Shown: positions 2,317-41,428 of the stretch, in pieces
Layout: each line of letters opens with the position of its first letter
Position numbering within the stretch: the stretch's first letter is position 1
Source of the DNA: Burkholderiaceae bacterium
GTDB lineage: Bacteria; Pseudomonadota; Gammaproteobacteria; Burkholderiales; Burkholderiaceae_D
Length of the DNA: 44,410 bases
Direction of reading: 5' to 3'
Assembly: GCA_022701635.1 (NCBI GenBank)
Contig: JAKOOD010000116.1
Coordinates: 1-44,410, forward strand
The notes under the pieces: generated by a model
Told to the model about the DNA's origin: nothing
What the model saw: only the letters and a program-made list of their open reading frames with translations
The model's database searches: none
Position numbers and translations under genes: made by a program

Positions 2317-2844
2317 TCATTCGGTTGACGACTCGCAGCTGACTTTTTCCTTTCTCTTCGTATCCACCATGACCTTGTAACAGGTCGGCGTTTTTTCGTA
2401 ATAGCCTGTCTGCTTGTCCAATCGATATGCATGCTCGAAGAAATAGGAACCTTGTTCGTTATTCACGGTCGCCATCGTGGAAGTCACTTTCTCGGGTAAA
2501 TTGCCCTTGGCCGTCAGTTTGAAATCGTTGAATTCCGAGAACGGCAAGAACAGAATGGTGCATCCCACTTTCCTGGGCGTGATACGGACCAGTTGCCGGG
2601 TCGGATTTCTTTCCGTGGTCGGGTCCCATGTCCACACATACCTGTTTTTTTGGACATCCGTATTTTTTTCCATCTTGACAACCACGGGATAATCCTCGGT
2701 CGGCTTGGGCACGGTGTATTTGCTGACGCATTGCCCCACAGGTGATCCATCCCAGGCGGACGGCGCCTGCTGCGCGAACGCGGCGCTACTGAACAGGTAC
2801 ACGGCAAGCGAAGCCATGCGAAGACTACGGTCTCTGGTACTCAT
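2317..2844 (-). CDS. Exported small protein, probable immunity to the 764-aa effector
   Basis: This 175-aa protein starts with a signal peptide (hydrophobic stretch ending in SSAAFA, cleavage before QQAPS) and has four Cys in the mature part, which could form disulphides in the periplasm. I do not recognise a family. It is the last gene of cargo module A. Its first 20 bases overlap the 3' end of the GH19-like effector gene at 2825, so the two are probably translationally coupled. A small exported protein overlapping a cell-wall effector gene is the usual arrangement of a T6SS immunity protein, so I infer that it blocks the effector's glycan- or peptide-cutting domain in the periplasm. The role rests on position and export only. 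Confidence 0.75.
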   Translation of the reverse strand: MSTRDRSLRMASLAVYLFSSAAFAQQAPSAWDGSPVGQCVSKYTVPKPTEDYPVVVKMEKNTDVQKNRYVWTWDPTTERNPTRQLVRITPRKVGCTILFLPFSEFNDFKLTAKGNLPEKVTSTMATVNNEQGSYFFEHAYRLDKQTGYYEKTPTCYKVMVDTKRKEKVSCESSTE

Positions 2845-5119
2845 AATTGATTGTTCCCGTTGAACTAAAAGGCACTTCCGTCGGTGGAAATGTGGAACAC
2901 AGCAAAGGGCTCATGTTCGGGTGCGCCGGCGTCCCCAGGTTCACGCTCGGCGTCAGGGGAGGATAGCGGAACTGCACATTACCAGAGAGCAGAGGCTCGT
3001 CGAAAAAGTAATTTTTAAGGAATAATGCAAACTGGTGGCGGTTGGCGTAGCCGTTACCCCCGCCATTCACCAGCCAGCATGCGAACCCGATTTGGACCAG
3101 GCTGAATGGCAGATCGGCTACCCGGTTCATGTTGGAAACACCGCGGAAGCGTTTGGTCACCCAGAAAAATCCGCTCGACTCACCGGCATGCTCCAGATCG
3201 CTGGAAACGATGCCTGGGTCATAGCGCGGCGACCAGCGCATGACCTGGCCGCCGCTGTCCTTCGCATGCGTCGATGTCGGCGTGATCCTGGCATCCGCAT
3301 AGGCACCTGTATGATTCGCGAGGGCCTTGTATTTTCCGTAGTTCTCGTAATTCGATCCCCACGTCAACTGCATGTAGCCCCTGCCGTACAAAGGTCCGTA
3401 TGGCTTGTTGTTGCCGGTGCCGCCCTCGTTCATCAACGCCAGCATGCCGGTCTCGATATATATCTGGGCCAGCGCATGGACGTGGCGCTGCCGCGACGCG
3501 CCGTAATATTTTCTGAAGTAATGATTCAGTGCCAACCGGTGCGTGGTGGCGCGTTCGAGCGCGGTTTGCCATGGGGTGTTCCCACTCAGGCAGCGACGAG
3601 GAATGCATTGCGCGAGTTCGCGCGCACTGAGCCATCCGCATCGCCTGAAATGACGGATGAATTCCCTGGGCTGCCAATGCCAGTGCGTGCCGTCCATGCC
3701 TGTCGCGCCGGGCCAGAAGGCCAATGCACCGATATGTGCTTTCAGTTTGTCGAAGTCGGCATCGGTCAGGGGCCGGGGGTTCTCCGGTGTACTGGTTTTC
3801 AGCCACGACCAGCGTGCATCGACGCTGGCCCCGTCCCATTCGGTGGGAAATTTCACGATCACTCTTGCAAGCCTGGCCGCCATACCGGCGTCATTCGTCC
3901 GCGCCGCGATTTCCGCCGGCGTGACGCTGCCATCATGGTCGGCGTCAAGCCAGTCACGCAGCAAGCTGGAATCGCAGCGGCTGTCGTGGCCGGTGCTGTC
4001 GTCGATGATCCGCCATTGTTTCCAGTGCGGGAGATCGGCGTCGCTGAAGCGGTGGACCGGCGCGGCATTCAAATTGACCCACCCTTGCCCACCGGGATAA
4101 CGGATGTGCCGCCAGTGCGGGACGTCCGCCGGCACAAGCCGGTCCGTACCGAGCACGCGCCCAAAGCGCCGCAGCGCGAAGACACCGCTGGGCGCGGGGC
4201 GCTGCGCGGCGGGGTAAGCATTGGCGATCTCGCTGGCATCTTTGAACAGCGTGTACTCCGCGTCGGGCTCCTGCAACGCGGCGCCCACGGCTGCGCCGTC
4301 GGCGTCGTAGGTGGTGACAAGCGCAGCGCCACGGGCACCGGCCGCGCCTGTACCCTCCGCATGACGGATGCCGACGACCAGCACGGCGGTGCTGGTATGC
4401 ACCGCTTGCAGGGGTTCGCGTGGCGGCAAGGGAGCATTGTGCGGGGCGTGGGGTGGCCGCGGCGGCTGCCGCATCGCGGTCGCGGAATCCGGCAGCGGCT
4501 TGTCGGCGAAGACCAGGGTGCCTGCCGGGAGATGGAAATAGTTTTCTCCAAAAACCGCGTCCGCGCGCCCATTCGCCGTGGTGGGCAGGTCGCCGCTGGC
4601 GCGGCCGGCCAGCCGGGCCAGGTTGGCTTCGTCGCAAATGATCTCGAAATGGATACGTCCCCGTTCGCCGTTGATGTAGCCGGCGCGACCGATCATCTCC
4701 TTGCGGTAGACAGGACCTTGCGCCCGGATCGTGGCGGGAATCTCATGCAGGTGCATGGTGATGCTGTAGAAGGTCACCGAGGCATGGGCACCACTACCGA
4801 TCTCGGTTTCATGCCGAATGACCACCACGCCATCGCTGGTTGCATTGTTGTACATCAAGGGATGCTCGGGAGGCAGCGACGGCAAGCCCGCCGTCGGCTG
4901 GCGTACGAACACGACCGTTCCATCGGCGATCGCGCGCACCGGTTCGAAGCCGCCCTCCAGCACAGGTGCGCTCAAGTGCAAGCCTCCATGCCAACCCAGA
5001 TTGAAGCTGACCGGAAAGGCCCCTTGCCCAGGCGTGCCGCCCGCCATGGCGATGTCGATCCAGTCGTCATCGCTCTGGTTGTCAATGCGCGCTGGCAAAA
5101 AAGGTGGACTGATCAGCAT
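2825..5119 (-). CDS. T6SS cell-wall effector: degenerate M23-like, EF-hand and GH19-like domains
   Basis: This 764-aa protein has no signal peptide, as expected for cargo carried by VgrG. Residues about 35-190 resemble an M23 (LytM) fold (WHGGLHLSAP, VRAIADGTV, GRIHFEI), but the HxGxD site reads HGGLH and the HLH site reads RIH, so two key positions differ. Around residue 395 an EF-hand loop DADHDGSVTPAE could bind calcium. The C-terminal part (about 510-720) resembles GH19 chitinase/lysozyme: a Glu in YIETGM (about 556), YGRGYMQLTWGSNY (about 580), SGFFWVTK and LVNGGGNGYANR (about 685). It would cut glycan strands in the target periplasm. It starts 40 bases after VgrG-A stops and overlaps the downstream candidate immunity gene by 20 bases. 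Domain names are by motif and not by search. Confidence 0.85.
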   Translation of the reverse strand: MLISPPFLPARIDNQSDDDWIDIAMAGGTPGQGAFPVSFNLGWHGGLHLSAPVLEGGFEPVRAIADGTVVFVRQPTAGLPSLPPEHPLMYNNATSDGVVVIRHETEIGSGAHASVTFYSITMHLHEIPATIRAQGPVYRKEMIGRAGYINGERGRIHFEIICDEANLARLAGRASGDLPTTANGRADAVFGENYFHLPAGTLVFADKPLPDSATAMRQPPRPPHAPHNAPLPPREPLQAVHTSTAVLVVGIRHAEGTGAAGARGAALVTTYDADGAAVGAALQEPDAEYTLFKDASEIANAYPAAQRPAPSGVFALRRFGRVLGTDRLVPADVPHWRHIRYPGGQGWVNLNAAPVHRFSDADLPHWKQWRIIDDSTGHDSRCDSSLLRDWLDADHDGSVTPAEIAARTNDAGMAARLARVIVKFPTEWDGASVDARWSWLKTSTPENPRPLTDADFDKLKAHIGALAFWPGATGMDGTHWHWQPREFIRHFRRCGWLSARELAQCIPRRCLSGNTPWQTALERATTHRLALNHYFRKYYGASRQRHVHALAQIYIETGMLALMNEGGTGNNKPYGPLYGRGYMQLTWGSNYENYGKYKALANHTGAYADARITPTSTHAKDSGGQVMRWSPRYDPGIVSSDLEHAGESSGFFWVTKRFRGVSNMNRVADLPFSLVQIGFACWLVNGGGNGYANRHQFALFLKNYFFDEPLLSGNVQFRYPPLTPSVNLGTPAHPNMSPLLCSTFPPTEVPFSSTGTINYEYQRP

Positions 5120-5159
5120 GGTTCAAACATCAAAGGTTGCGCCCCGCTCCATGAAGGAC

Positions 5160-8000
5160 CTAGGTCGAGAACGGATACTTGCTGGTGAGCTCGAGCTCTC
5201 CCTGGGGAAGCAGCGGGAGGGCGTACGTACCGTGCACCGGGCCTTCGAAACTCTTCTTCGCCGCGTGAATGGTGATCTTGCCAGGGCACTGCACCGTGAT
5301 GTTGCCCCCCTCGATCGTGATATTGGCGCCATCCGCCGTCGACAGGCTGATGCGCTTTGCCGCGGCCCAGTCCACGTGCGCATTGGCGCTGGCAATGTCG
5401 ACATTGTCGCGCGCGCGCACGTTCAGCCCGCCGGCCTGCGCCTGTACGTCGACGGCGCCCTTGGCGGCGATGCACTGCAGCCCAAGTCCGCCCGTACCCG
5501 GTTTGACCACGCCGCCGAGCATGCCGATCGCCTGTCCGCTGTGCACGCGCAGGCGTCCTCCGGTGACGAACTGCGTGTCTTCCCCGCTCATCAGCGACAC
5601 TGTCTCGCCGTTGGACAACTGCACCGCCTGCGCCGCCGTGACGCCCAGGCCGGCCTTGGCCGAGATCGCCGCGACCGGGGCGGACAGGTGCGGCAGCTTG
5701 TCCTCGCCCGGCGCGGTGTCCTTGGCCGCGGCGCTGGCACGGGCCGCGTCGATGCCGCCTGCGCTGACCATGCCCGACACGGTGGCCAGCATCGCGCGCA
5801 GCGGCGCCGCCTTGTCGTCCAGCACGCTCGCATTGGCCTTGCACGTGCCCAGATGGGCGCTCAAGGCCACGGTCCCGTGTTCGACGGCGGCCTTGCTGAA
5901 GGTCTCCCCCAGCTGGACCGCCTGCTTGAGCAGTGCGATGCCGGCGGAATTGTCGCCGGCCGGCGCGCGCGCGGCCGCGTCGTGCGCGATCGGATAACTG
6001 CTGACCAGCAGGCCGGCGTGCGCGCGCAACGCACCATGGGCGTCGGTGCGCAGCTCGGCGCCGATGCCGCGCAGGCTGCCGCGGAAGTTGTCGGCGGCGT
6101 GCACCAGGTGACCCAGGTTCAGCTCGGTAGCGGCCAGCGTGGTGCGCAGTTGCACCCGTCCCTGGGCATCGGTGTCGTCGAACAGCAACTGGTTGTAGCC
6201 GGCGCCGCCGAATTCCTTGCTGCGCACCCCCCACTGCGCGGCGCCGTTGCGATGGCCCGCGCCTTCGCTGGAGGCCCCGTGCCAGACCGGCGCGTTGCCG
6301 CCCGCCAGGTTGCCCTGGCTGGACACCGCATGGTCGTGGGCGGCGCCGAACCCGGCACGATCGTCGCCGGCGGCAACCGCGCCACCGGGCGTCGGCGCCA
6401 CGCCGCCCTCGCCCTGCCCGTTGTACACGGCGCCGATGACCAGTGGGCGGTCGATGTCGTTTTCGATGAACTGGACGATCACTTCCTGCCCGATGCGTGG
6501 CAGGAACTGGCTGCCGATGCCGCCCCCGGCCAGGCGCTGGGCCACGCGCACCCAGCAGGTGGCGTCGCCGCTGTCCTGCCAGTGGAAGCGGATCCGCACC
6601 CGGCCCAGGCGGTCGCAGTACATCTCGTCCGCGCCGGACGGCGTGTCGGCGCCGTCCGGACCGACCACGATCGCGCTCTGGGCGCCCATCGCGGTCGGGC
6701 GCGGATGGGCACGGGCATCGCCGTCCCGCACCTGCGGGCGCCAAACGACGTCGGCCGGCACTGCCTCGAAGCAGTTGGCGTAGCCGCTCGCCGCCGCCTG
6801 GGCGACGGCGAGCCGGAAATCCGGCAGGGCGTCGTCACGCACCGCGTCCTCCAGCAGTTCGGGAATCGGGCCGAACAGTTCGGCCAGCGCTTCCGACGCC
6901 TTGGCGGGCAGGTTGTTGACGCCGGCGCTGTCGACCCGCAACACGGTGTAGCGCGCCGCCTCGCGCAGGCGCTCCAGCGGCGCGCCGCTGATGGCCAGAT
7001 GGCTGCCTGCGCGCAAGGTGCGCACGGTCGAGCGGCCGCGCCACAGCCGGATGCGCGCTTCGCGCGATTCCATCTGCAACCTGGCGTAGCGTTCGGCATG
7101 ACCACCGTCGGCGTAATGGTACTGCCCCGGGGCGTCATAGGCTTCGAGCGGCGGCAGGCTGGGCGACCCCGCCACCAGCGAGGGCACGTTGGCCGCCACC
7201 GCTTTCTTCGCCTTGTAGTCGTAGCTGAGCAGCGTGGTGGCCGATGGCCCGAGGCGGCGCACGACCGCGAGCGCCTGCACGGTGTCGCTCTGCTCGCGTG
7301 CGCGTGCGCCGTGAAAGCGCACTCCGGCCACGCCGCCGCTGGCATCGTCCGGCATCGCGCTGGCGGCGGTGCTATCGGCGAAGATCACCATTTCCGGTCC
7401 ATCCGCGGCCTGCTCGAAGCGCCAGGCCAGGCCCTCTTCGGCCAGCAGGCGCTCGACGAAGGCAAGGTCCGATTCGCGGTACTGGCAACAGTAGCTGCGC
7501 GGCGGCGCGCCGCGCATGAAGGCGCCGGCGTCTTCGCTCCAGCGCCAGCGCGCCACCGGCGCATGGAGGTCGAACACCTCGTCGACGATATCGGTCACCG
7601 TGCGGTCTTGCCACACGCGGCTGTTGCGCATGTGGGCCAAGCGCCAGATCCAGTGGCTGATGCGGATCCGGTAGCGGGCGAAGCCGCCCTCGCTGCCCAG
7701 CATCGCCGCCTCGCTGATTTCGCCGCCGAACGCCGCCCGGGTGCCGTCGGCCAGGCTGATCTCCAGCGTGGCGGCCCTGCCCGGCAACGCCGTGACGTCG
7801 ATGCCGGCGTCGGTGGACAGCAGGATCACGTCGCGCGCACCCACGCCATGCACCAGGTCGCGCGCGGCAAAGGCCTCGACCAGCAAGCCGCCCGCGCCGA
7901 AGCCGGCGTCCCCCTCTTCCAGCGTCAAGGCATACAGGCGGGTTGCGCTGTCGAACTGCGCGAGTGCGGCCATGGCCCGGTTCAACAATGCACGGCGCAT
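5160..8000 (-). CDS. vgrG: VgrG spike protein A (TssI)
   Basis: This 946-aa VgrG forms the trimeric spike at the tip of the Hcp tube and carries the effector encoded next to it. The N-terminal gp27-like part begins with the usual LYALTLEEGD and includes YCQYRESDLAFVERLLAEEG. The gp5-like OB-fold signature IGQEVIVQF followed by NDIDRPLVIGAVYN lies around residues 500-530. A DUF2345-type beta region follows (about 700-900), and the protein ends soon after it without a long extra domain. The frame is open to 8084, but I choose the ATG at 8000. It begins two bases after the upstream stop, while the longer start would overlap that gene by over 80 bases and add a sequence unlike any VgrG. Confidence 0.95.
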   Translation of the reverse strand: MRRALLNRAMAALAQFDSATRLYALTLEEGDAGFGAGGLLVEAFAARDLVHGVGARDVILLSTDAGIDVTALPGRAATLEISLADGTRAAFGGEISEAAMLGSEGGFARYRIRISHWIWRLAHMRNSRVWQDRTVTDIVDEVFDLHAPVARWRWSEDAGAFMRGAPPRSYCCQYRESDLAFVERLLAEEGLAWRFEQAADGPEMVIFADSTAASAMPDDASGGVAGVRFHGARAREQSDTVQALAVVRRLGPSATTLLSYDYKAKKAVAANVPSLVAGSPSLPPLEAYDAPGQYHYADGGHAERYARLQMESREARIRLWRGRSTVRTLRAGSHLAISGAPLERLREAARYTVLRVDSAGVNNLPAKASEALAELFGPIPELLEDAVRDDALPDFRLAVAQAAASGYANCFEAVPADVVWRPQVRDGDARAHPRPTAMGAQSAIVVGPDGADTPSGADEMYCDRLGRVRIRFHWQDSGDATCWVRVAQRLAGGGIGSQFLPRIGQEVIVQFIENDIDRPLVIGAVYNGQGEGGVAPTPGGAVAAGDDRAGFGAAHDHAVSSQGNLAGGNAPVWHGASSEGAGHRNGAAQWGVRSKEFGGAGYNQLLFDDTDAQGRVQLRTTLAATELNLGHLVHAADNFRGSLRGIGAELRTDAHGALRAHAGLLVSSYPIAHDAAARAPAGDNSAGIALLKQAVQLGETFSKAAVEHGTVALSAHLGTCKANASVLDDKAAPLRAMLATVSGMVSAGGIDAARASAAAKDTAPGEDKLPHLSAPVAAISAKAGLGVTAAQAVQLSNGETVSLMSGEDTQFVTGGRLRVHSGQAIGMLGGVVKPGTGGLGLQCIAAKGAVDVQAQAGGLNVRARDNVDIASANAHVDWAAAKRISLSTADGANITIEGGNITVQCPGKITIHAAKKSFEGPVHGTYALPLLPQGELELTSKYPFST

Positions 8001-8002
8001 GG

Positions 8003-8908
8003 TCAACCCGCCGCTTTGCCGACCCGGCCGGACTTGCACGCCGCCGTGTCCTTGGCTTCGCCACGGCACGCACGCGCCCGGCAACGCTGGGATTCGGCGG
8101 CGCCGGCATGCGTGGCGCAGCGCTTGAGCGCCTCCTCCACCGGTGCGGCGGCAGCAGGCTTGGTATGGGCAAGCAGCGCCGCCAACAGGGCGACGTCGTT
8201 GTCGGCGGCAGAAGCATCGGCCGGCGCCTGCTTGTGCATGGGCTTGGGCCTGGCTTGCGCGCCCGGCTTGTGGGCGCGGGCGGGCTTGTCGGGCGCGGGC
8301 TTTTTCTTGGCGGCTTTCTTGTGCGACGCCGCGTCGGGAACGGGCTTGTCGAGGAGGCTGGCGAGATCCTGCTTGTCGGTCTTCGCCGGCGGCGTACGCG
8401 ACGGGGCAGCGGAAGCGGAAGCGGACGAACCGAACGCGTTCGACAGTTCATCCTGGACCGCCGCCGTACCGCTCTGCGCCGCTGGTGCGGCAAGCGGCGC
8501 GGCAAGCGGCGCGCCGCCCGTGCTGGAGGCAGATGCGGCCGCAACTGCGGATGCCGCCATGGGAACGGCAACGAGGCCCACGGCACGGGCCGGCGGCTGC
8601 GCCTGCACCACCGCCGGCGACGCATGGTCCGGCGCGGCGGCGTCGCCCAGCGCCAGCCACCCCAGCACGCCGGCGGCAGCGACGGCCAGGGCCGACAGCG
8701 CAAGACGAACGCCACGGCGCCGAGCCGGCACCGACGCTACCGACGCACTGTGCGGCCGCGCGGGCGCGGCATGGCCGTCGAGCCGGCTAAGGACGCGCTC
8801 GTTGTCCGGCCCCGTACTTTGGTCCGACGAAAGAAGGCTGGGCCGGCCTGCGCTGGGGCGGCGTTCGGTACTTTCGTGCAAAACAGCCTCCTCTGTTGCG
8901 TTGAGCAT
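8003..8908 (-). CDS. Single-span membrane protein with Ala/Pro-rich region and Cys-rich tail
   Basis: This 301-aa protein is not recognised. It has a cytoplasmic head of about 70 residues, one transmembrane helix (about 71-88, LALSALAVAAAGVLGWLAL), a long Ala/Pro-rich low-complexity region with a Lys/His-rich segment (about 200-245), and a compact tail with four Cys (CATHAG, RCRARACRG, CKSGR). If the N-terminus is inside, the tail is periplasmic. It is the first gene of cargo module A and stops two bases before VgrG-A starts, so the two are co-transcribed. It might be a VgrG-loading factor or an assembly aid, but nothing in the sequence proves that. The promoter must lie in the 8909-9070 gap shared with the M15 peptidase gene. 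Confidence 0.8.
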   Translation of the reverse strand: MLNATEEAVLHESTERRPSAGRPSLLSSDQSTGPDNERVLSRLDGHAAPARPHSASVASVPARRRGVRLALSALAVAAAGVLGWLALGDAAAPDHASPAVVQAQPPARAVGLVAVPMAASAVAAASASSTGGAPLAAPLAAPAAQSGTAAVQDELSNAFGSSASASAAPSRTPPAKTDKQDLASLLDKPVPDAASHKKAAKKKPAPDKPARAHKPGAQARPKPMHKQAPADASAADNDVALLAALLAHTKPAAAAPVEEALKRCATHAGAAESQRCRARACRGEAKDTAACKSGRVGKAAG

Positions 8909-9070: not shown

Positions 9071-9928
9071 ATGAAGGAATCGCGCGTGCTGTTCGTTGCT
9101 GTGGCGTTGTATTTTGCGCTGGCGTGCATGGTCAGCTGGATCGTGCTGTTCCCGGCGGGACGCGCGTTCGTGGTACAGGCCTTGCTCGGTGCCGGCAGCC
9201 GCGTGCAGCGGCACTGGCGCTCGCTGGCGCAGCGGCGCGGCACGGTCATGGCAACCAGCGGCCACTCCGGCCACGCGGGCCTGCGCGGTGCGGCCGGCTT
9301 CCTGCGCCGCCATTCCGCGATTTCCCTCATCGGCGCGGTCTTGCTGGCGGCGCCGGCCACGTTCGCCCTCTTGAGCGGCGCGCATACCCGCCTCGGAGGC
9401 TTCGAGGACGGTGGCCGCGAGGTCAACGGCCAGGTGGCGATGCTGCTCGAAGGCGAGCAGCTGGTGCCGCCGCCGCCGTTGCCGCCGGTAGCGTTCACGA
9501 CGGCGGAAGTCACCGAGGCGCGTCCGCTGATCGCGTCGGCCAGCCGCGAGTGGGCCATGTTGAACAGCGATTTTCAACAGCGGTTGCTGCTGGTGTTTCG
9601 GATCATGAAGGAACGGTACGGCTACGACATGACCCTGCTGGAAGGCTACCGTAGCCCGGAACGCCAGCAGACGCTGGCCGCGATGGGATCGAACGTGACG
9701 AATGCCAGCGCCTTCCAGAGCTGGCACCAGTATGGCCTGGCGGCGGACAGCGCCTTTGTGCGCAACGGCCGCATCTTGATCTCGGAAAAGGATCCATGGG
9801 CGATGCGCGGCTACCAGTTATATGGCGAAGTGGCGGAATCGGTCGGCCTCACATGGGGCGGCCGTTGGAAGATGATGGATTTCGGACACACCGAACTGCG
9901 CCTGCCGGGCGTCATGCGGCGGCGCTAG
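9071..9928 (+). CDS. Membrane-anchored M15 (VanY-type) peptidase, TagX-like
   Basis: This 285-aa protein has two hydrophobic helices (about residues 5-27 and 79-98) joined by a strongly Arg-rich loop. By the positive-inside rule the loop is cytoplasmic and the C-terminal domain periplasmic. That domain carries M15 metallopeptidase motifs: GYRSPERQ (about 190), SWHQYGLAADSAF (about 217, a zinc His and Asp) and DFGHTEL (about 270, a zinc His). In Acinetobacter, TagX is an M15-like L,D-endopeptidase encoded in the T6SS locus that helps the apparatus pass the cell wall. I infer the same role here, as no immunity partner is adjacent and structural genes follow. The start is uncertain: an in-frame ATG lies at 8990, but 9071 gives a normal membrane N-terminus. 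Neither has a strong Shine-Dalgarno. Confidence 0.85.
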   Translation: MKESRVLFVAVALYFALACMVSWIVLFPAGRAFVVQALLGAGSRVQRHWRSLAQRRGTVMATSGHSGHAGLRGAAGFLRRHSAISLIGAVLLAAPATFALLSGAHTRLGGFEDGGREVNGQVAMLLEGEQLVPPPPLPPVAFTTAEVTEARPLIASASREWAMLNSDFQQRLLLVFRIMKERYGYDMTLLEGYRSPERQQTLAAMGSNVTNASAFQSWHQYGLAADSAFVRNGRILISEKDPWAMRGYQLYGEVAESVGLTWGGRWKMMDFGHTELRLPGVMRRR

Positions 9929-9945
9929 CGATTGGAGAGAACACC

Positions 9946-10209
9946 ATGGCAGGACCCTTCATCAGACTCGGCGACAGGACTTCGCACGGCGGCACCGTCG
10001 TCGAGGCGTCGGCGATGAGCGACATCGACGGCATCGGCATCGCCCGCATTGGCGACAAGGTCACCTGCCCCGTGCACGGCGACCAGACCATCGTGGGCGG
10101 CGACATGACGCTGGTGGTGGACGGCAAGCCGGTCGCGCGCCACGGCGACGAGATCGGCTGCGGGGCCAGGCTGATCGCCGGCCAGCAAGCCAGCGTGGAC
10201 CAGGTCTGA
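9946..10209 (+). CDS. PAAR-domain spike tip protein
   Basis: This 87-aa protein is a bare PAAR domain, the cone that sharpens the VgrG trimer. It shows the expected opening GDRTSHGGTVVEAS, then TCPVHGDQTIVGG and ARHGDEIGCGARLI, with Cys and His residues placed for the metal site near the tip. It has no toxin extension, so it is a structural tip rather than an effector. The ATG at 9946 has GGAGAG at 9934-9939. The frame is open further upstream, but that part overlaps the M15 gene and does not resemble PAAR. The next gene starts one base after its stop. Confidence 0.95.
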   Translation: MAGPFIRLGDRTSHGGTVVEASAMSDIDGIGIARIGDKVTCPVHGDQTIVGGDMTLVVDGKPVARHGDEIGCGARLIAGQQASVDQV

Positions 10210-10210
10210 C

Positions 10211-11563
10211 ATGCGCGGCTGGCTGCAGGGCGTTATGCTCTCCACCTCGCTGTTCGGCGGCAGCTGGATCGGTGCCGTCTCGTACTGGCGCGCCACCAAT
10301 CGCATGCCCTCGGCGCTCGACCTGCTGGTCTGGCTGGCGCTGTTGCCGCTGGCGCTGCTGCTGGCGGTGTGGGCAGGACGCCGCGTCATGAACGCGCGTG
10401 CCCGGGACGACACGAACGCCGCACCAGCGCCCGGCCAGGCCGTCGCCAGCGTGCCCGCGGCGGCGCCCGCCGTGCCTGCCCTTGCCATCCTGGCAGCGGC
10501 GATCCGCACCCCCCACGGCGCCACGCCGGACGAACTCGCCCAAGCCATCGGCGCGGGACGCGCCCGCGCCGACCTCGATCCGGCGCTGGTCGACCAGGAT
10601 GGCTTTCCGGTCTTCAGCGCGCGCGTCGACAGCGCCGACGGCGACGCCATGGCGGCGGAACTCGAGGGCTGGCGCGCGCAGGCGGGCCTCGACGATCCGC
10701 GCTTCACACCCGAGCAATGGCGTGCGCTGGCCCTGGGGACGCAGGTATGCACCGAACTGCTGGCACAGGCGAGCGCCGGCGCACGACAGGTGGCGCAGGG
10801 TGCGCTGCGCGGACTGCGCATCCATGCCGTCCTGGGCACCGACTGGGACGCGGCACAGCGCGCCCAGGCAAGTGCGTGGATGGCCGCGCTGGCCATCCGC
10901 GACGGGTGGCCCGCCGCGACCGTCAGTGCCTCCAGTCCACCGATGGCGGCGCCCGGCATGCTGGCGCGCTTGGCCAGCCAGGCTGACCAGGACGGCGAGC
11001 CGGTGTTCGCGATCGTGCTGGCCTTCGGCTCGCAGGTCGGCGAAGCGAGCGTGGAGCGGCTGGCGGCGCGCGGGGCGCTGTTCGGCGCCGCCACCCCCCA
11101 GGGCCTGATCCCGGGCGAGGCGGCCGCCGGCCTGCTGGTGGCGGCCCCTGACGGAGCGGCGCCGACGCTGCAGCTGGCGGTCGCGGTCGAGGGCGCCGAC
11201 GAAGGTGGTGCCGCCCGCAATGCCGGCGCCGCGCGGCTGCGCCGGCTCGCCGACGCCCTCGTCCCCGGCGCGGACGGCATGGACGCCGTCACCGCGCTGT
11301 TCGCCGACACCGGGCACCGCAGCGCGCGCCAGCTCGAGCTGATGAAATTCGCCGCCGACGCCCTGCCCCAACTGGACGCCGGCCAGGACGTCAAGGCCGT
11401 CGGCGGCGCCTGCGGGCAGTGCGGCGACGGCGCGTTCCTGGCCGCCCTCGCGCTGGCCCGCCAGCATGCGCTCGACGGTGCCGGCGCCGCGCTCTGCATC
11501 GCCAACGAAGACCCACCACAACACACTGCCGCCCTGGTCCGCCCGGCCGCGGCGCTTTCCTGA
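10211..11563 (+). CDS. Membrane-anchored protein with thiolase/ketosynthase-like motifs
   Basis: This 450-aa protein has two N-terminal hydrophobic helices (about residues 5-27 and 36-56), an Ala/Pro-rich linker, and a soluble domain (about 90-450). Parts of that domain recall beta-ketoacyl-synthase-like folds: GLIPGEAAAGLLVA resembles the KS GEGAGALVL strand. CGQCGDGAFLAALALA resembles the KS HTxGAAG helix. The ending ALCIANEDPPQHTAALVRP resembles the final KS strands. I see no catalytic Cys-His-His set, so enzymatic activity is doubtful. It lies between PAAR and TssM in a tight operon (1-base gap upstream, 17 bases to tssM), so it is probably a T6SS accessory or assembly protein. The fold is my inference from motifs and needs a profile or structure comparison. 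Confidence 0.75.
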   Translation: MRGWLQGVMLSTSLFGGSWIGAVSYWRATNRMPSALDLLVWLALLPLALLLAVWAGRRVMNARARDDTNAAPAPGQAVASVPAAAPAVPALAILAAAIRTPHGATPDELAQAIGAGRARADLDPALVDQDGFPVFSARVDSADGDAMAAELEGWRAQAGLDDPRFTPEQWRALALGTQVCTELLAQASAGARQVAQGALRGLRIHAVLGTDWDAAQRAQASAWMAALAIRDGWPAATVSASSPPMAAPGMLARLASQADQDGEPVFAIVLAFGSQVGEASVERLAARGALFGAATPQGLIPGEAAAGLLVAAPDGAAPTLQLAVAVEGADEGGAARNAGAARLRRLADALVPGADGMDAVTALFADTGHRSARQLELMKFAADALPQLDAGQDVKAVGGACGQCGDGAFLAALALARQHALDGAGAALCIANEDPPQHTAALVRPAAALS

Positions 11564-11580: not shown

Positions 11581-14500
11581 ATGCAAACACTTCGGCAACA
11601 CCTCACTTCCCGTACCGCCATGACCTTGATGGGCCTGTGCGCCCTGGGCGCGCTGCTGTGGATCGCCCACGCCCTGCTCGGCCTGCCGGCCGCCTGGGCC
11701 TGGAGCCTGTTCATCCTTGCCGCGGCCGGTATCGCGGCCGGCTGGCTGTGGCGGCGCTACCGGCGCCGGCAGGCGGGCGCCCGCTTGGGCGACATGCTCG
11801 AACAGCAGGCGGCCACGGATGCGCCCAAGGCCAATCCCGCGCAGCTGCAGGAACAGGAAGTCATCCGCGCCCGCATGCTGGACGCCATCTCCACCATCAA
11901 GGGATCCAAGCTGGGCCAGCTCTCGGGCGACGCCGCGCTCTACGAACTGCCCTGGTACATGGTCATCGGGAATCCTTCTGCGGGTAAAAGCACGGCGATC
12001 GCCAGCTCCGGCCTGCAGTTCCCCTTCGCCGACAGCAAGATCGTGCAAGGCGTCGGCGGGACCCGCAACTGCGACTGGTTCTTTACCACCGACGGTATCC
12101 TGATCGACACCGCCGGGCGCTACTCGGTGCAGGAGGAAGACCGCGCCGAATGGTTCGGCTTCCTGTCGCTGCTGAAGAAATACCGCAAGAAGGCCCCGAT
12201 CAACGGCGTCGTCATCGCCGTCAGCGTGGCCGAGCTGACCGGCAACCGTCCCGAGTTCGCGATCAACCTGGCCAAGAACCTGCGCCAGCGGGTGCAGGAG
12301 CTGACCGAGAAGCTCGAAGTACAGGCCCCTGTATACGTGGTATTCACCAAGGCCGACCTCATCACCGGCTTCAACGAATTCTTCCAGGACGCCGAACTCG
12401 GCGAGCGCGACCGCATCTGGGGCGCCACGCTGCCATACGACCAGAACGCCGGTGGCCAGCAGGTGCTGGACCAGTTCGACGCGCGCTTCGATGAATTGTA
12501 CGAAGGCTTGAAGGACACCAGCGCCGCGAACATGGCCCTGCAGTGGCGCGAGGGCATGCCGCCCGGCGTGTTCACCTTCCCGCTGGAGTTTTCTCACATC
12601 AAGGCGCCACTGCGCACCTTCATCGCCACCCTGTTCGAGGAAAACCCGTTCCAGTTCAAGCCGGTATTCCGCGGCTTTTACTTCACCAGCGCGCTGCAGG
12701 AAGGCGAACCGGTGTCCGCGTCGTCGCAGCGCGTCGCGCAGCGTTTCGACATCAAGCTGCAGCAGCCGGCCGACCATGGCGCCGCCTACCAGCAGCAGGG
12801 CTATTTCCTGCTCAACCTGTTCCGCAACGTGATCTTCGCCGACAAGGACCTGGTGGCGCAATACGCCAGCCCCGCCAAGACCCGCATGCGCTACGCCGCG
12901 TTCATCGCCTGCGTGGCGGTGGCCGGCCTGGCGCTGGGCGGCTGGACCTGGTCCACCATGAACAACCGCCAACTGGTCGCCAACGTCGAGGCCGACCTGG
13001 CCCAGGCCGCACGCGTGCAGGCCAAGCGCGTGGATCTGCAGTCGCGTTTCGAGGCGCTGCAGATCCTGCAGGACCGCATCGAGCAGCTCGAACGCTACCG
13101 CGAGCACCGTCCGCTGTCCCTCAGCCTGGGCTTGTACCAGGGCGACTACCTGGAGCGCAAGCTGCGCGAGGAATACTTCAGCGGCGTGCGCGAAGTGATG
13201 CTGAAGCCGGTCGGCGAGTCGCTCGAAAGTTTCCTGAACGAGGTCAACCGCAACCCCGCCGCGCTGCAGCCGTCGGCGCGCACCGCTGGCGGCCCCGACG
13301 CGGCCGCCAAGCAAGCTGCCGATCCTGGCGCGGCCCCGGCATCGCAACAGTTCAAGGATTCCAGCCCCACCAGCAGCGAGGATGCCTACAACGCGCTGAA
13401 GACCTACCTGATGCTGGCCGACCCGGCGCGCGCCGAGGGCGCGCACTTGAACGACCAGCTGACCCGCTTCTGGCGCAACTGGCTGGACGCCAACCGCGGC
13501 GCCATGCCGCGCGAGGAAATGATCCGCAGCGCCGAGCGCATCATCACCTTCTACCTGTCGCAGATCCAGGACGTGTCCTGGCCGCGCCTGGAGCCGAAGC
13601 TGGCATTGGTCGACCAGACCCGCGACAACCTGCGCCGCGTGGTGCGCGGCATGCCGGCGCGCGAGCGCGTGTACGCCGATGTCAAGGCGCGCGCCGCCAC
13701 CCGCTTCCCGACCGTGACGGTGGCGCGCATCGTCGGCGAGCAGGACAAGGAGCTGGTACTGGGCAGCTACGCCATCCCCGGCACCTTCACCCGCGAAGCC
13801 TGGGAAGGCTTCGTGCAGGATGCCTTCCGCGACGCCGCCAACCGCGAGCTGCAAAGCGCCGACTGGGTGCTCAAGACCGCATCCAAGGACGACCTGACGC
13901 TGGAGGGCAGCCCGGAGCAGATCCAGAAGGCGCTGGTCGAGTTGTACAAGAACGACTACGCCAGGGAATGGCAGCGCTTCCTGCAGGGCGTGACGATCCG
14001 CGACCTGGCCACGTTCGAGGCCGCCGCCGGCGCCATGAACCGGCTGGGCGATCCGCAGAGCTCGCCGATCGGCAAGCTGGTCAACACCGTCTACCAGCAG
14101 ACGTCCTGGGACAATCCGACGCTGGTGGACGCCGGACTGAAGCAGGCGCAGCGCGGCGCCATGGCCTGGTTCCGCGAAACCATCCTGCGCCAGAAGCCCT
14201 CGCAGCTGAACATCAACATCCCCGCCGGCACGCCCCAGAACGCGGCCCTGCCCCTGGGGCCGGTGGGCCGCGAATTCGCCGGCGTGGCGCGCATGGTGGT
14301 CGCCAAGGACAACAACGCCTCGCTGATGCGCGGCTACATGGACCAGATGTCCAAGCTGCGGAGCCGCTTCAACACCATCAAGAACCAGGGTGACCCGGGG
14401 CCCGGCGCCAAGCAGCTGATGCAGCAGACGCTGGACGGCAGCGGTTCCGAGCTGGCCGACGCGCTCAAGTACGTCGACGAGCAGATGCTGACCGGGATGA

Positions 14501-15387
14501 GCGATACCCAGAAAGGCGCCGTGCGGCCGCTGCTGGTGCGTCCGCTGATGCAGGCATTCGCCGTCATCGTCAAGCCGGCGGAAGCCGAGATCAACAAGGT
14601 CTGGGCGGCCCAGGTGGTAGCGCCGTTCCGCCAGAACCTGGCGCCGAAGTACCCGTTCGCGGTGGAGTCGCGCCTGGAGGCGAGCAACCAGGACATCGGC
14701 GAGATCTTCGGTCCGGCCGGCGCCATTGCGAAGTTCTTCGACACCACCATCGGCCCGCTGGTCGTGCGCCGCGGCGACGTGCTGGCAGCCAAGACCTGGG
14801 CCGACATGGGCATCGGGCTGGCGCCCGGGGTGGTGGCCAGCTTCCCCGGCTGGATCGCGCCGCTGTCCGCGGGCGGCGTCGCCAACGTGGCGGCGACCAG
14901 CGGCGGCGAGGAGCAGACCATGTTCGACCTGCAAGCCTTGAACGCGGTCGGCGCCACCGAATTCACCATCGAGATCGACGGCCAGGCCCTGCGCTGGCGC
15001 GGCCAGCCGCAGCCCTGGGTCCACATGGCCTGGCCGGGCAACGCCGGCACGCCGGGCGCGCGCATCACCGCCATCACGCCGCAGGGCCGCGCCGTCACCC
15101 TGTTGAACGAACCGGGCCGCACCGGGCTGAAAAGCATGGTCGAGGCGTCCAGCCGCAAGAAGAAGGACGGCGGCGTGTTCGAGCTGACCTGGTCGAACGA
15201 GGGCGTGAGCGTCAGCGCCAACCTGAAGGTGATCGGCACCCGCAAGCCGGCAGCGGCACCGGTGACCGCCGGCGCGTCCGGCGCCCAGGGCTTCAAGCGC
15301 CTGCGCCTGCCGGACACCGTGGTGACCGCCGCACCGACCCTGGCCGCCGTCCCCGCCGCGCCTGCGGGCACCGGAGGCGCCCGGTGA
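11581..15387 (+). CDS. tssM: TssM (IcmF), inner-membrane core of the T6SS membrane complex
   Basis: This 1268-aa protein has two N-terminal transmembrane helices (about residues 12-55), a cytoplasmic NTPase-like domain with Walker A GNPSAGKST (about 130) and DTAGRY, and a third helix at about 438-458 (FIACVAVAGLALGGWTW). A long periplasmic part follows, ending in beta-rich IcmF C-terminal sequence. The length and layout match the family. TssM joins TssL and an outer-membrane partner into the envelope channel through which the Hcp tube is fired. The frame is open further upstream, but the ATG at 11581 begins directly with the expected short N-terminus before helix one. Its stop overlaps the GTG of tagF. 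An intact Walker A suggests the NTP-binding version. Confidence 0.96.
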   Translation: MQTLRQHLTSRTAMTLMGLCALGALLWIAHALLGLPAAWAWSLFILAAAGIAAGWLWRRYRRRQAGARLGDMLEQQAATDAPKANPAQLQEQEVIRARMLDAISTIKGSKLGQLSGDAALYELPWYMVIGNPSAGKSTAIASSGLQFPFADSKIVQGVGGTRNCDWFFTTDGILIDTAGRYSVQEEDRAEWFGFLSLLKKYRKKAPINGVVIAVSVAELTGNRPEFAINLAKNLRQRVQELTEKLEVQAPVYVVFTKADLITGFNEFFQDAELGERDRIWGATLPYDQNAGGQQVLDQFDARFDELYEGLKDTSAANMALQWREGMPPGVFTFPLEFSHIKAPLRTFIATLFEENPFQFKPVFRGFYFTSALQEGEPVSASSQRVAQRFDIKLQQPADHGAAYQQQGYFLLNLFRNVIFADKDLVAQYASPAKTRMRYAAFIACVAVAGLALGGWTWSTMNNRQLVANVEADLAQAARVQAKRVDLQSRFEALQILQDRIEQLERYREHRPLSLSLGLYQGDYLERKLREEYFSGVREVMLKPVGESLESFLNEVNRNPAALQPSARTAGGPDAAAKQAADPGAAPASQQFKDSSPTSSEDAYNALKTYLMLADPARAEGAHLNDQLTRFWRNWLDANRGAMPREEMIRSAERIITFYLSQIQDVSWPRLEPKLALVDQTRDNLRRVVRGMPARERVYADVKARAATRFPTVTVARIVGEQDKELVLGSYAIPGTFTREAWEGFVQDAFRDAANRELQSADWVLKTASKDDLTLEGSPEQIQKALVELYKNDYAREWQRFLQGVTIRDLATFEAAAGAMNRLGDPQSSPIGKLVNTVYQQTSWDNPTLVDAGLKQAQRGAMAWFRETILRQKPSQLNINIPAGTPQNAALPLGPVGREFAGVARMVVAKDNNASLMRGYMDQMSKLRSRFNTIKNQGDPGPGAKQLMQQTLDGSGSELADALKYVDEQMLTGMSDTQKGAVRPLLVRPLMQAFAVIVKPAEAEINKVWAAQVVAPFRQNLAPKYPFAVESRLEASNQDIGEIFGPAGAIAKFFDTTIGPLVVRRGDVLAAKTWADMGIGLAPGVVASFPGWIAPLSAGGVANVAATSGGEEQTMFDLQALNAVGATEFTIEIDGQALRWRGQPQPWVHMAWPGNAGTPGARITAITPQGRAVTLLNEPGRTGLKSMVEASSRKKKDGGVFELTWSNEGVSVSANLKVIGTRKPAAAPVTAGASGAQGFKRLRLPDTVVTAAPTLAAVPAAPAGTGGAR

Positions 15388-16379
15388 GCCGCGCCGCCAC
15401 CGGCGCCACCGCGGCCAGCGTCGGCTACTTCGGCAAGGTGCCCAGCCGGGGCGACTTCATCAAGGGCAGCGACAACCCGGCCCTGGTGAAGATCCTGGAC
15501 GACTGGCTGGCGCGCGCCATGGACCTGCTGAGCGCGGACGCGCGCTGGAAGCTGAGCTACGACACGATGGCGCCGCTCCACTTCGCCATCATCGGCCCGC
15601 GCCGCCGCCATGCGATCGCCGGGCACATCGTGCGCAGCAGCGACCAGTCGAGCCGGCGCTTTCCGTTCCTGATGATGAGCACCGTGGAAATCGGCGAGCC
15701 GGCAGCCTTCGTCCCGGATGCGCCGCTGATCTTGAACCGGCTGTGGAACCGGCTGGCGGCGCTCACCGCCGGCGTGGTGGCCGCCGCCGACGCCACGGCG
15801 CCGCTGCAGGCGGCCACCAGCCAGTCGATCGAACTCGACCTGCGCACCGCGGCCTACGACGCGGCCTTCGCCGATTTCCTCGAGATGCAGACCGTGGGCG
15901 GCTTGCAGGGATTGCTGGCGCAGGCCGGCTTTACGGGCAGCGTGCGGCGCCTGCTGCTGGCGCTGGGCATGCTGCTGCAGCCGGTACTGGCCAGCAGTTC
16001 CAGCCGGCTCGAGAAAAGCCTGGTGCTGCCGCTGCCGCGCGACCCGATGTACGGCAGCCTGGCGGCGGCCTACTGGATGCACCTGATCACGCCCTTCCTG
16101 GCGCGCGCCGACTTCGAGCTGGCGCTGTTCCAGACCCGCATCGGCGAGCGGCCGGCGCTGGTGCTGGGGTTTTCGGGCGCCTCGGCGCAGACGCTGCAAG
16201 CCATCATCGACCCCCACGCCGGCCTGGAACGCCACATCACCTTCGACGAACTCGATTGGGTCGAAGACCAGGTCAACGACGACTACGCCGTGCGCAAGCT
16301 GTCGACCTACCTGGCGCAGGACGAGCTGTCGCTCAAGTCCGCCCTCGATTCGCTTTGCACCGCCTTTATCGGAACCTGA
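15384..16379 (+). CDS. tagF: TagF-domain T6SS accessory protein
   Basis: This 331-aa protein has the TagF (BMA_A0400-family) signature near the N-terminus: VGYFGKVPSRGDFIKG, then ILDDWL and FAIIGPRRRHAIAGHIV with SSRRFPF. It starts at GTG 15384, which overlaps the TGA of tssM in GTGA; GGAGG at 15373-15377 supports this start. In Pseudomonas aeruginosa, TagF is a post-translational repressor that works around the Fha scaffold. No Fha, PpkA kinase or PppA phosphatase gene is seen in this window, so it may act alone or through another partner. It is tightly linked to the OmpA-like gene, which begins two bases after its stop. Confidence 0.93.
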   Translation: MSRAATGATAASVGYFGKVPSRGDFIKGSDNPALVKILDDWLARAMDLLSADARWKLSYDTMAPLHFAIIGPRRRHAIAGHIVRSSDQSSRRFPFLMMSTVEIGEPAAFVPDAPLILNRLWNRLAALTAGVVAAADATAPLQAATSQSIELDLRTAAYDAAFADFLEMQTVGGLQGLLAQAGFTGSVRRLLLALGMLLQPVLASSSSRLEKSLVLPLPRDPMYGSLAAAYWMHLITPFLARADFELALFQTRIGERPALVLGFSGASAQTLQAIIDPHAGLERHITFDELDWVEDQVNDDYAVRKLSTYLAQDELSLKSALDSLCTAFIGT

Positions 16380-16381
16380 CC

Positions 16382-17158
16382 ATGGCACGCTCTTTCCAAC
16401 CATTCCTGCTGGCGCTGGCACTCGGCGCCGCCAACGCGGTACCGGCCCAGGCCCAGGCGCCGCAACCCGGCCAGGTGCTGGCCGCCGGCACCGTCCCCGA
16501 CGAGGCGACCAAGGCCGCCGTGCTGGCGCGCCTGCGCGACGTCTACGGCCAGGAGCGCGTGGTCGACCAGATCGCAGTCGGCCAGGTGGCCGTGCCGGCC
16601 AACTGGAACGGCTACGTGCAGAAGGTGCTCGCGTCCGACCTCAAGCAGATCAGCCGCGGCCAGCTGAAGATCGACGGTACCACCGTGAGCCTGCGCGGCG
16701 AGGTCGCCAGCGAAGGCGTGCGCCAGAAGATCGCCGGCGACGTGGCGGCCGGGCTGAACCCCACCTACACCGTCAACAACGGCTTGCGCGTGTCCAGCAG
16801 CGAACAGGGCATCCTGGACAGCGCGCTGGCCAACCGCACCGTCGAATTCGAAAGCGGCAAGGCCGCCCTGACCCCGGCCGGACGCACGATCCTGGATGAG
16901 ATGATCGCCGCCATGCAAAAGGTCAAGGGACGCAAGGTCGAGGTCATCGGCCACACCGACAACGTCGGCCTGCGCGCCACCAACCAGGGCCTGAGCCAGG
17001 CCCGCGCCGAGGCGGTCAAGGCCTACATGGCCAGCCACGGCATCAACGGCGACTTGTTGAGCGCCTCGGGCCAGGGTTCGGATCGTCCGGTGGCCGGCAA
17101 CGACACCCCCGAGGGGCGTGCGCGCAACCGGCGCATCGAGTTCCGCATCGCCCAGTAA
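16382..17158 (+). CDS. Exported BON-OmpA peptidoglycan-binding protein
   Basis: This 258-aa protein has a Sec signal peptide (ending in VPAQA), a BON-like segment (about residues 80-135: LKIDGTTVSLRGEV and VNNGLRV) and an OmpA C-terminal peptidoglycan-binding domain (about 150-258). The OmpA domain shows VEFESGKAALTPAG, VIGHTDNVG and the conserved tail ARNRRIEFRI. It is periplasmic and non-covalently wall-bound. TssL here lacks its own OmpA extension, so this protein may anchor the secretion complex to the wall, as OmpA-like Tag proteins do in other T6SS loci. The ATG at 16382 comes two bases after the tagF stop. The frame is open far upstream inside tagF, but only this start gives a signal peptide. 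Confidence 0.9.
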   Translation: MARSFQPFLLALALGAANAVPAQAQAPQPGQVLAAGTVPDEATKAAVLARLRDVYGQERVVDQIAVGQVAVPANWNGYVQKVLASDLKQISRGQLKIDGTTVSLRGEVASEGVRQKIAGDVAAGLNPTYTVNNGLRVSSSEQGILDSALANRTVEFESGKAALTPAGRTILDEMIAAMQKVKGRKVEVIGHTDNVGLRATNQGLSQARAEAVKAYMASHGINGDLLSASGQGSDRPVAGNDTPEGRARNRRIEFRIAQ

Positions 17159-17174
17159 AAATACAAGGACCCGC

Positions 17175-18191
17175 ATGTTCACAGCAGAGAGTTTACTCCA
17201 GCCGATCAGCGCCGACCGCCCCGCCGGCGCCGACCTGAGCTTTTCTTCCGACATGGACGCCATCGTCCACGCCCGCAAGTTCGACGATCCCTCGCTCGAC
17301 CAAGGCGAGTGGCTGACCGACCTGAAGGAAGCCGACTGGGACTTCGTCGTCAAGCGCTGCGCCGCCCTGCTCGCCGGCACCAGCAAGGACCTGCGCCTGG
17401 CCGTGTGGCTGACCGAGGCCGCCGCCAAGCGGCATGCCCTGGCCGGCCTGGCCGAAGGCTTGCGCGTGGTCGGCGGCCTAGTGGCACGCTTCTGGGACGA
17501 CGGGCTGTACCCGGAAGCCGAGGATGGCGACCAGGAGCAGCGCATCGGCAACCTGGCCTGGATCCTGGCGCGCATTCCCGGCCTGCTCAAGGACATCCCG
17601 GTCACCGACGGCAACGGCGCCTGGACCCTGCTCGACTTCGAGACCGCGCGCAAGGCCAACCTGGACGAGGGCCGCCGCCTGGCGGAGATGGAAGCGGCGC
17701 GCCGCAACAACCCGGCCGCCTTCCGCAGCGCCTTCGCGCGCGACGCGCAAGCCTGCCTGGATGCGCTGCTCGACCTCGAACATGCCGCCGACGCGCGCCT
17801 GGGCGCCGACGCCCCCGCCTTCGTGGCGGCGCGCGACGCCGTGCAGGACCTGCTGCGCATGATGCCGGCACCGGGCGAACCGCCGCCGCTCGCCGTCGAC
17901 GAGGGACAGGCCGCGCCGTCCGCGACCCCGTTCGCTGCCGATCCGTACGCCGCCCCGGCCCACGCCGGGCCGCCCGGCGCGATCGTCAACCGCCAGCAAG
18001 CCATCGCCCAGCTGCGCGTGATCGCCGACTTTTTCCGCCGCACCGAGCCGCACAGCCCGGTTTCCTACTTCGCCGACAAGGCGGCCAGCGCGGGCGAGCA
18101 GGACTTGCACACCTGGCTGCGTTCGGTGGTCAAGGATTCGGCGTCGCTGGCGCACATCGAGGAATTGCTGGGGGTGCCGCCGCAGGCGTGA
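17175..18191 (+). CDS. tssA: TssA sheath-assembly protein (short type)
   Basis: This 338-aa protein has the ImpA_N domain at the start: LLQPISADRPAGADL, then DWDFVVKRCAALLAGTSKDL and the WLTEAAAKRHALAGLAEGL and FWDDGLYPEAEDGD stretches. A shorter C-terminal helical region (about 275-338) holds QLRVIADFFRRTEPHSPVSY and a terminal LLGVPP. TssA caps the growing tube and sheath and docks at the baseplate. The length matches the short TssA class rather than the long forms of over 450 residues. The ATG at 17175 has AAGGA just upstream at 17165-17169. It is the last gene of the plus-strand block that begins with the TagX-like gene, and it faces a minus-strand exported-protein gene. Confidence 0.93.
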   Translation: MFTAESLLQPISADRPAGADLSFSSDMDAIVHARKFDDPSLDQGEWLTDLKEADWDFVVKRCAALLAGTSKDLRLAVWLTEAAAKRHALAGLAEGLRVVGGLVARFWDDGLYPEAEDGDQEQRIGNLAWILARIPGLLKDIPVTDGNGAWTLLDFETARKANLDEGRRLAEMEAARRNNPAAFRSAFARDAQACLDALLDLEHAADARLGADAPAFVAARDAVQDLLRMMPAPGEPPPLAVDEGQAAPSATPFAADPYAAPAHAGPPGAIVNRQQAIAQLRVIADFFRRTEPHSPVSYFADKAASAGEQDLHTWLRSVVKDSASLAHIEELLGVPPQA

Positions 18192-23349: not shown

Positions 23350-23364
23350 GTCAGCCCGCCTTCC

Positions 23365-29561: not shown

Positions 29562-29598
29562 GCGGGCTTCCCTTGCTAGGTCGTTGGTGGTTGGTTGG

Positions 29599-35025: not shown

Positions 35026-35027
35026 GG

Positions 35028-35540: not shown

Positions 35541-35575
35541 GGTTTCCTCTTGGGGTGGGGGATCGTGGCGCCGGC

Positions 35576-36166: not shown

Positions 36167-36395
36167 ACCTATCCTTTAAAAGTAACCAAGGTTATCAGTT
36201 TTGTTCATGATCTCGGCTCTATCTCAACGATATCAGAGTTTCAATTTTGGGAATTTTCAATTGAATCTCACACATTCTCACTTTGTGCTACCGGCGCACG
36301 ATTGAATGCCAGGATTCCCCGTGAAATCGGGAAATGTTACTATCTACCCAATATTTGGTGCCTAACGTATGCCGTAACGAAGGGAAATCGAGCGC
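36167..36395. promoter_or_regulatory. Divergent promoter region of the two core T6SS operons
   Basis: This AT-rich gap of 229 bases separates the tssB operon (leftward) from the tssK operon (rightward). It holds a perfect palindrome TTCAATTGAA at 36256-36265 and an imperfect inverted repeat TTCCCCG-N6-CGGGAA at 36315-36333. Either could bind a regulator. A weak -10-like TACTAT lies at 36338-36343, without a convincing -35. No sigma-54 site was found. Confidence 0.5.
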
Positions 36396-41421: not shown

Positions 41422-41428
41422 GAACCCG

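Follow-up and report, generated by a model that had tools for sequence, protein, structure and literature searches.

How the baseplate and the PAAR tip of a T6SS find the membrane complex is, to our knowledge, not settled. The question bears on a locus of a Burkholderiaceae bacterium of the genus Massilia, in which a gene for a 450-aa protein (P0001; 10211–11563, plus strand) lies in a T6SS cluster between the gene for PAAR and tssM. A sequence-only reading of this DNA had described the product as a thiolase/ketosynthase-like protein with two N-terminal helices. We analyzed the gene within the whole stretch of 44,410 nucleotides (the window; contig JAKOOD010000116.1 of assembly GCA_022701635.1) and together with its relatives in other genomes.

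The gene and its T6SS cluster

The window cluster contains tssA, B, C, E, F, G, H, K, L and M, hcp, three vgrG genes and tagF, as well as a tagN of the OmpA type and a TagX-like M15 peptidase; all core T6SS genes are present except tssJ. The features referred to below are as follows.

8003–8908, minus strand: tagY-like membrane protein, upstream of tagX on the opposite strand (position, one membrane segment; no Pfam match)
9071–9928, plus strand: tagX-type M15 peptidoglycan peptidase (PF13539; start set by homologues; neighbour in other loci)
9946–10209, plus strand: PAAR spike-tip gene (PF05488)
10211–11563, plus strand: tagZ/tsmK, predicted membrane-anchored pseudo-ketosynthase, 450 aa (homologues, profiles)
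10226–10369, plus strand: predicted N-terminal membrane hairpin, second helix (aa 35–53) clear, first weak (hydropathy, sequence, alignment)
10472–11554, plus strand: ketosynthase/thiolase-like domain, aa 88–448 (hhalign)
11099–11137, plus strand: QGLIPGEAAAGLL motif, aligned with the KS GEGA segment (alignment)
11306–11308, plus strand: Asp366, at the position of KS catalytic His303; 25 of 27 family members have Asp here (alignment)
11581–15387, plus strand: tssM (TIGR03348; likely start)
15384–16379, plus strand: tagF (PF09867)
16307–17158, plus strand: tagN-like OmpA/BON protein, start uncertain (PF00691)
17118–18191, plus strand: tssA (PF06812)
26913–29609, minus strand: tssH (ClpV)
29599–30654, minus strand: tssG, approximate start (PF06996)
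30654–32498, minus strand: tssF (PF05947)
32499–32984, minus strand: tssE (PF04965)
33010–33501, minus strand: hcp (PF05638)
33529–35031, minus strand: tssC (PF05943)
35028–35549, minus strand: tssB (PF05591)
35576–36166, minus strand: tagM-like TPR lipoprotein, lipobox LVAC (TPR matches; homologues beside tssB in other clusters)
36167–36395, no strand: site where related clusters have tssJ; none found in the window
36396–37736, plus strand: tssK (PF05936)
37733–38515, plus strand: tssL (PF09850)

The three VgrG genes lie in regions 2825–8084, 21412–26845 and 38512–43396 and have a possible M23-type peptidase as neighbour in every case; the first of these peptidases scores below the Pfam cut-off, and the third carries LysM. 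The regions resemble three effector modules with peptidoglycan hydrolases. A GGDEF-EAL protein of the cyclic-di-GMP phosphodiesterase type is encoded at the cluster edge (333–2267).

The claimed location of the gene between PAAR and tssM was confirmed: the PAAR gene (ATG 9946 to 10209; PF05488 E 2e-23) ends one base before the tagZ/tsmK ATG, and the likely tssM start (TIGR03348 697 bits) lies 17 bases 3′ of the tagZ/tsmK stop. Of 36 further genomes of the genus that were searched, 26 contain homologues of P0001 with 37–62% identity (27/37 with its own genome, G000); the same search gave homologues in one of 24 genomes beyond the genus. Comparison with L001, a close homologue in Massilia agri, revealed 102, 106 and 182 differences at codon positions 1, 2 and 3, respectively (445 codons), and an excess of third-position changes was also seen against L004 and L007. 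These same-genus homologues and the third-position variation indicate a real gene rather than a chance frame.

The two N-terminal helices were only partly upheld. The second exceeded the hydropathy threshold in all 27 aligned family members, whereas the first did so in 17 of them and not in P0001, where it nevertheless aligned with clear first helices of relatives; in this alignment the G012 row lacks the first helix and the thiolase-like rows G081 and G050 lack their first residues (automatic start choice). Positively charged residues (GRRVMNARAR) directly follow the predicted hairpin of P0001.

Membership and spread of the TagZ/TsmK family

The layout of P0001, two predicted N-terminal membrane helices followed by a large soluble domain, is that of TagZ/TsmK/AsaB proteins, and its gene stands in the setting of theirs, in a T6SS cluster next to tssM and paar. 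TsmK of Acinetobacter baumannii is AsaB (PMC10564176), whose homologues were named TagZ in 2019 (PMC6612558). The latter paper reports TagZ from Ralstonia, Rubrivivax, Xanthomonas, Achromobacter and some Burkholderia, located next to T6SS-1 clusters or away from them, with PAAR immediately upstream. A profile of 19 Massilia-genus homologues (A1) found A. baumannii TsmK (NZ_CP064203.1, between tssG and tssM) with E 9.7e-15 among the frames of three loci, and hhalign matched this single protein to the Massilia set at 93.7% (E 1.9e-7); its identity to P0001 is 18%. Because of this match and the equivalence of TsmK, AsaB and TagZ, the window protein belongs to a known family, the spread and PAAR pairing of which are not new; judged by sequence comparison, the window gene is the Massilia TagZ/TsmK, a member of an already described family.

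TagZ/AsaB as described in 2019 and P0001 have N-terminal membrane helices and a PAAR gene immediately upstream in common, whereas the ketosynthase (KS) nature, noted here for the P0001 family, is absent from the main text of PMC6612558, which has no hits for ketoacyl or thiolase. In 2023, TsmK was called Acinetobacter-specific and a “pseudo-ketoacyl synthase” in a report whose main text contains neither the word PAAR nor thiolase (PMC10564176). According to that report, tsmK deletion in A. baumannii abolished Hcp secretion and killing, and TsmK co-purifies with TssM, TssL, TagX and TssK, steadies TssM foci, raises TssM and TssL levels and has a domain that is cytoplasmic by prediction. A. baumannii TsmK and P0001 are sequence homologues, both encoded before tssM, and both appear to combine a TM hairpin with a KS-type domain lacking catalysis; however, PAAR is adjacent to tsmK in the window and not in A. 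baumannii.

A wider profile (A4) matched 27 of 399 genomes across the order. Sixteen of them, from seven families, carry clear TsmK (E ≤ 1e-14), including G000 and G056, which are themselves in the A4 model; the other 11 gave weaker or partial matches, that of G050 (L069) being thiolase-like. In a class-wide draw, 13 of 369 genomes matched, of which the own genome, G225, G231 and G337 were clear, and the other nine matches were thiolase-like or KS proteins by sequence. A tblastn search of plasmids with three TsmK proteins gave no match, and no further relatives were found in the viral contigs scanned. Three A. baumannii records of 3.7–4.1 Mb with a TssM match, NZ_CP104448.1 (L127), NZ_CP064203.1 (L116) and NZ_CP077849.1, look like chromosomes despite being filed as plasmids in PLSDB.

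Analysis of 45 distinct loci, namely those returned by the searches or fetched rather than every match, revealed PAAR directly upstream of tsmK (≤229 bases, same strand) in 35 and tssM or tssK within the fetched flank in 37. The ten loci without an adjacent PAAR comprised five with tssK upstream and five next to tssM, with A. baumannii among the latter. Conservation beside tssM, a point raised in the sequence-only reading, held in part: tssM was directly downstream in 24 of the 45 loci and not in the others, and in several same-genus genomes tsmK lies outside a tssM locus and is instead part of a module with tssG, F, E, K and, often, PAAR. The own genome contains a second TsmK (G000 contig C309:394–1752; L022, L052), 41% identical to P0001, beside PAAR, tssK, tssE, tssF and tssG on an 8.3-kb contig without tssM. 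In addition, the TssJ-bearing Massilia clusters of this T6SS subtype at G007 C7:25–41 kb, G012 C1:5.94–5.96 Mb, G002 C2:22–40 kb and G009 C23:20–38 kb were seen without tssF/tssG, with tssG in other loci of these genomes; baseplate genes seem to be split there into modules, some with PAAR and tsmK.

Ketosynthase-type domain and apparent kinship with TvpD

Both motifs quoted in the sequence-only reading, QGLIPGEAAAGLL (aa 297–309) and CGQCGDGAFLAALALA (aa 401–416), are present in P0001. The KS resemblance on which it rested is weak for P0001 alone (NCBIfam PRK06147, E 0.013; 14.7 bits, below the curated cut-off of 342 bits) and clear for the family, 18 of the 19 members of A1 matching PRK06147 at E ≤ 1 (best 1.2e-9); this was the only NCBIfam ketosynthase model reached at E ≤ 1, by 18/19 and 14/17 members. 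With the P0001 sequence alone, Pfam returned just a sub-threshold DUF and the PDB search no useful match; the family profile gave weak KS matches in the PDB (best E 0.02). Comparison by hhalign of 27 family members with 13 T6SS thiolase-like proteins yielded 99.1% (E 1.5e-18) over 336 columns of the soluble domain, and with six canonical KS 89.9% (E 1.7e-6) over 142 columns of the C-terminal part, compared with at most 1.6% for controls from 11 other T6SS families. FabF and FabB alone gave 0.4% and two PKS domains alone 81.9%; therefore, the link to canonical KS is weaker than that to the T6SS thiolase-like family. Direct descent from FabF/FabB was rejected, since these match the family less well than TvpD does.

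The observation that P0001 has no clear catalytic triad extends to the family, as the Cys-His-His triad of an active beta-ketoacyl synthase was not found in any of the 27 rows. The column of the catalytic Cys, around which the rows align only approximately, holds no Cys and is gapped in two rows; in row L007 a Cys stands six residues before it. The His303 column holds Asp in 25 rows and the His340 column never holds His, whereas a near-invariant PGE segment is kept. Activity as an enzyme was rejected on this loss of the triad. Relative to FabF, FabB and PKS KS domains, with which its C-terminal part can be aligned, the family has thus lost Cys-His-His and gained a predicted membrane hairpin.

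Published models of A. baumannii TsmK are reported to match a PKS ketosynthase domain in DALI with two of three catalytic residues missing and one, a His, retained (PMC10564176); in our alignment the A. baumannii row has no His in either His column, in a part where it is poorly aligned. Our AlphaFold2 models from two sequences reached pLDDT 39.1 and 38.9, and the putative thiolase fold of P0001 draws its support by homology from the published models. The suggested structural reuse of the fold finds support in the sequence profiles (99.1% and 89.9% against controls of at most 1.6%), and the soluble domain of P0001 is probably a KS-type domain reused structurally without its catalytic residues. 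The supposed surprise of a fatty-acid-enzyme fold in a secretion locus did not hold up, given the 2023 description of TsmK and the recurrence of thiolase-like proteins in another T6SS module (PMC11883445, PMC13373197).

In that module, a thiolase-like gene is described as conserved in DUF2169 synteny type A and as uncharacterised (PMC11883445), and TvpD (PA0098), described by the domain model PRK06147, has been modelled with AlphaFold as a co-chaperone at the PAAR domain (PMC13373197, which also cites Liu et al. 2020 for PRK06147 as a possible adaptor). Six named TvpD-like proteins matched PRK06147 at 4e-128 to 4e-55, three of them over the cut-off, and the TsmK family matched these six at 97.6% (E 3.7e-12) in hhalign. 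The 13-row TvpD-like set is biased, in that seven rows had come from the TsmK-profile search, and L063, L064, L065 and L071 were placed in it by sequence alone; the six named rows, found with two of those seven, still gave 97.3–97.6%. A. baumannii TsmK alone reached 0.6% with the named TvpD set, 3.2% with the wider set and 0.4% with KS; the TsmK–TvpD link therefore needs the other family members.

The TvpD-like set shares the altered residues: Cys is absent in 13/13, Asp replaces His303 in 11/13 and His340 is absent in 13/13. In the tree, canonical KS formed one group (100/100), ten TsmK rows grouped with one TvpD-like row from G262 (97/96), and 11 TvpD-like rows formed another group (96/96), with G198 apart; the exact places of the A. 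baumannii, G056 and G262 rows are unsure because of long branches. The shared Asp and the tree place TsmK beside the T6SS thiolase-like family rather than the fatty-acid enzymes, and TagZ/TsmK appears to be a sister family of TvpD (PRK06147). The G262 protein (L065 9383–10573, 397 aa, in a T6SS cluster) has one hydrophobic segment near its start and may be an intermediate, though its branch is long.

The two families have in common the lack of the catalytic Cys, mostly Asp for His303 and a gene beside a PAAR-type gene. They differ in the predicted N-terminal hairpin, present in the TsmK family and in 0/13 TvpD-like proteins; two rows (G262 and Paracoccus) show one hydrophobic segment within their first 90 residues. 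They also differ in gene position: instead of lying beside tssM, the TvpD gene has DUF2169 on one side and a PIPY/PAAR-like gene on the other, and by annotation five of the six named loci have the gene between DUF2169 and a PAAR-like gene, the sixth having “hypothetical” neighbours. The window gene is not so placed, its neighbours being tagX, PAAR and tssM. In the literature searched, which lay mostly outside the subscription journals, we found no published link of TsmK/TagZ to TvpD, PRK06147 or thiolase-like proteins, and TsmK, thiolase and ketoacyl do not occur in the main text of PMC13373197. What is added here is the apparent kinship of TagZ/TsmK with TvpD and evidence against TsmK as a TssJ substitute.

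Possible role at the membrane complex

The reading we consider probable, though far from secure, is that TagZ/TsmK is a membrane-tethered, catalytically dead KS-type adaptor that docks the baseplate and PAAR tip under TssM. The N-terminal hairpin would tether the KS-type domain to the cytoplasmic face of the inner membrane, where TsmK may hold the TssM–TssL membrane complex, bring the baseplate into register under the TssM channel via TssK and receive the PAAR-tipped VgrG spike there. TsmK would share its origin with TvpD, the cytosolic predicted PAAR co-chaperone. This proposal draws on the family membership, the loss of catalytic residues, the sequence kinship with TvpD and the linkage to PAAR, tssM and tssK found here; by analogy, we infer that Massilia TsmK may act like its A. 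baumannii counterpart. The PAAR–tsmK gene pair, the co-chaperone model of TvpD and the binding partners of TsmK suggest tip handling at the membrane. Contact of TsmK with PAAR we infer from gene order and the AlphaFold model of TvpD in PMC13373197; against it, PAAR is not beside tsmK in A. baumannii, nor in nine other of the 45 loci.

An alternative proposed for A. baumannii is that TsmK replaces the missing TssJ and stabilises TssM in tssJ-less clusters (PMC10564176), in line with the raised TssM and TssL levels reported there. The window cluster likewise lacks tssJ where Paraburkholderia clusters have it, between the tagM-type TPR lipoprotein and tssK, and in the own genome (88% complete) the only PF12790 match is on another contig with other T6SS genes. 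For the TssM-linked clusters of the genus that were examined (window, G004, G005, G012, G014 and G669), TssJ, where the genome has one, is encoded on another contig or >1 Mb away; the genomes of G005 and G014 lack it altogether; the tssJ site itself was read in the window, G005 and G012 only, and TssM was scored for 14 candidates per genome, its absence there not being used. Outside the genus, however, TssJ was present in 16/16 tested TsmK-bearing genomes, within 30 kb of tsmK in seven (G225, G231, G511, G578, G618, G714 and G763) and on another contig or >250 kb away in the remaining nine. The same-genus genomes G002, G015, G016 and G018 have TssJ and no TsmK, which means that not every T6SS of the genus depends on TsmK. 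The TsmK domain is predicted to be cytoplasmic, whereas TssJ is an outer-membrane lipoprotein. As the two proteins frequently occur together, TsmK is no mere substitute for TssJ, and replacement is unlikely as its general function.

The GS-linker of A. baumannii TssM, said to accompany such a replacement, was rejected as a trait common to the family: it is absent from the sister clusters G004, G005, G012 and G014, and the window TssM was no better than shuffled sequence (37% of shuffles), in a comparison that excluded rows G002 and G009 C4 for wrong reading frames. Acinetobacter is reported to lack tssJ, tagM and tagY (PMC6612558), whereas the window cluster lacks tssJ but has tagM- and tagY-like genes. 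TssJ absence and the TssM GS-linker are taken as Acinetobacter traits, not traits of the TagZ/TsmK family.

Another possible role is that of a dead enzyme which reports lipid state to the T6SS through retained binding of an acyl chain, CoA or acyl carrier protein. Retention of the KS scaffold with its PGE segment and conservation of Asp366 in 25/27 members would suit such a sensor; yet the triad Cys and His are missing from the aligned columns of all 27, and none of the window proteins compared with Pfam is an acyl enzyme or a carrier protein, which makes this role distinctly improbable. Export as an effector carried by PAAR, in the manner of effectors with membrane helices, would explain PAAR as the next gene upstream and the two tsmK copies in VgrG/PAAR islands (L005, L006). 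We regard it as very improbable, because tssM or tssK lies within the sequence fetched around 37/45 copies, the next window gene is tssM rather than an immunity-type gene, and the Acinetobacter homologue is reported as an essential, co-purifying machine part (PMC10564176).

The reports on TagZ (2019), TsmK (2023) and TvpD (2026) appear, within the literature searched, to have stood unjoined until now. Read together, they recast the “fatty-acid enzyme co-opted in Acinetobacter” as one branch of a larger T6SS family and predict a TsmK–PAAR contact; the present findings also weaken the idea that TsmK exists to replace TssJ. It is possible, though we would not yet call it probable, that one family of dead KS proteins handles the PAAR tip, with TvpD as its cytosolic branch and TagZ/TsmK as the membrane-tethered branch that docks PAAR–VgrG–baseplate on TssM. 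If this is true, spike tip and membrane complex would be joined through TsmK as their missing link, and TsmK would not be a stand-in for TssJ.
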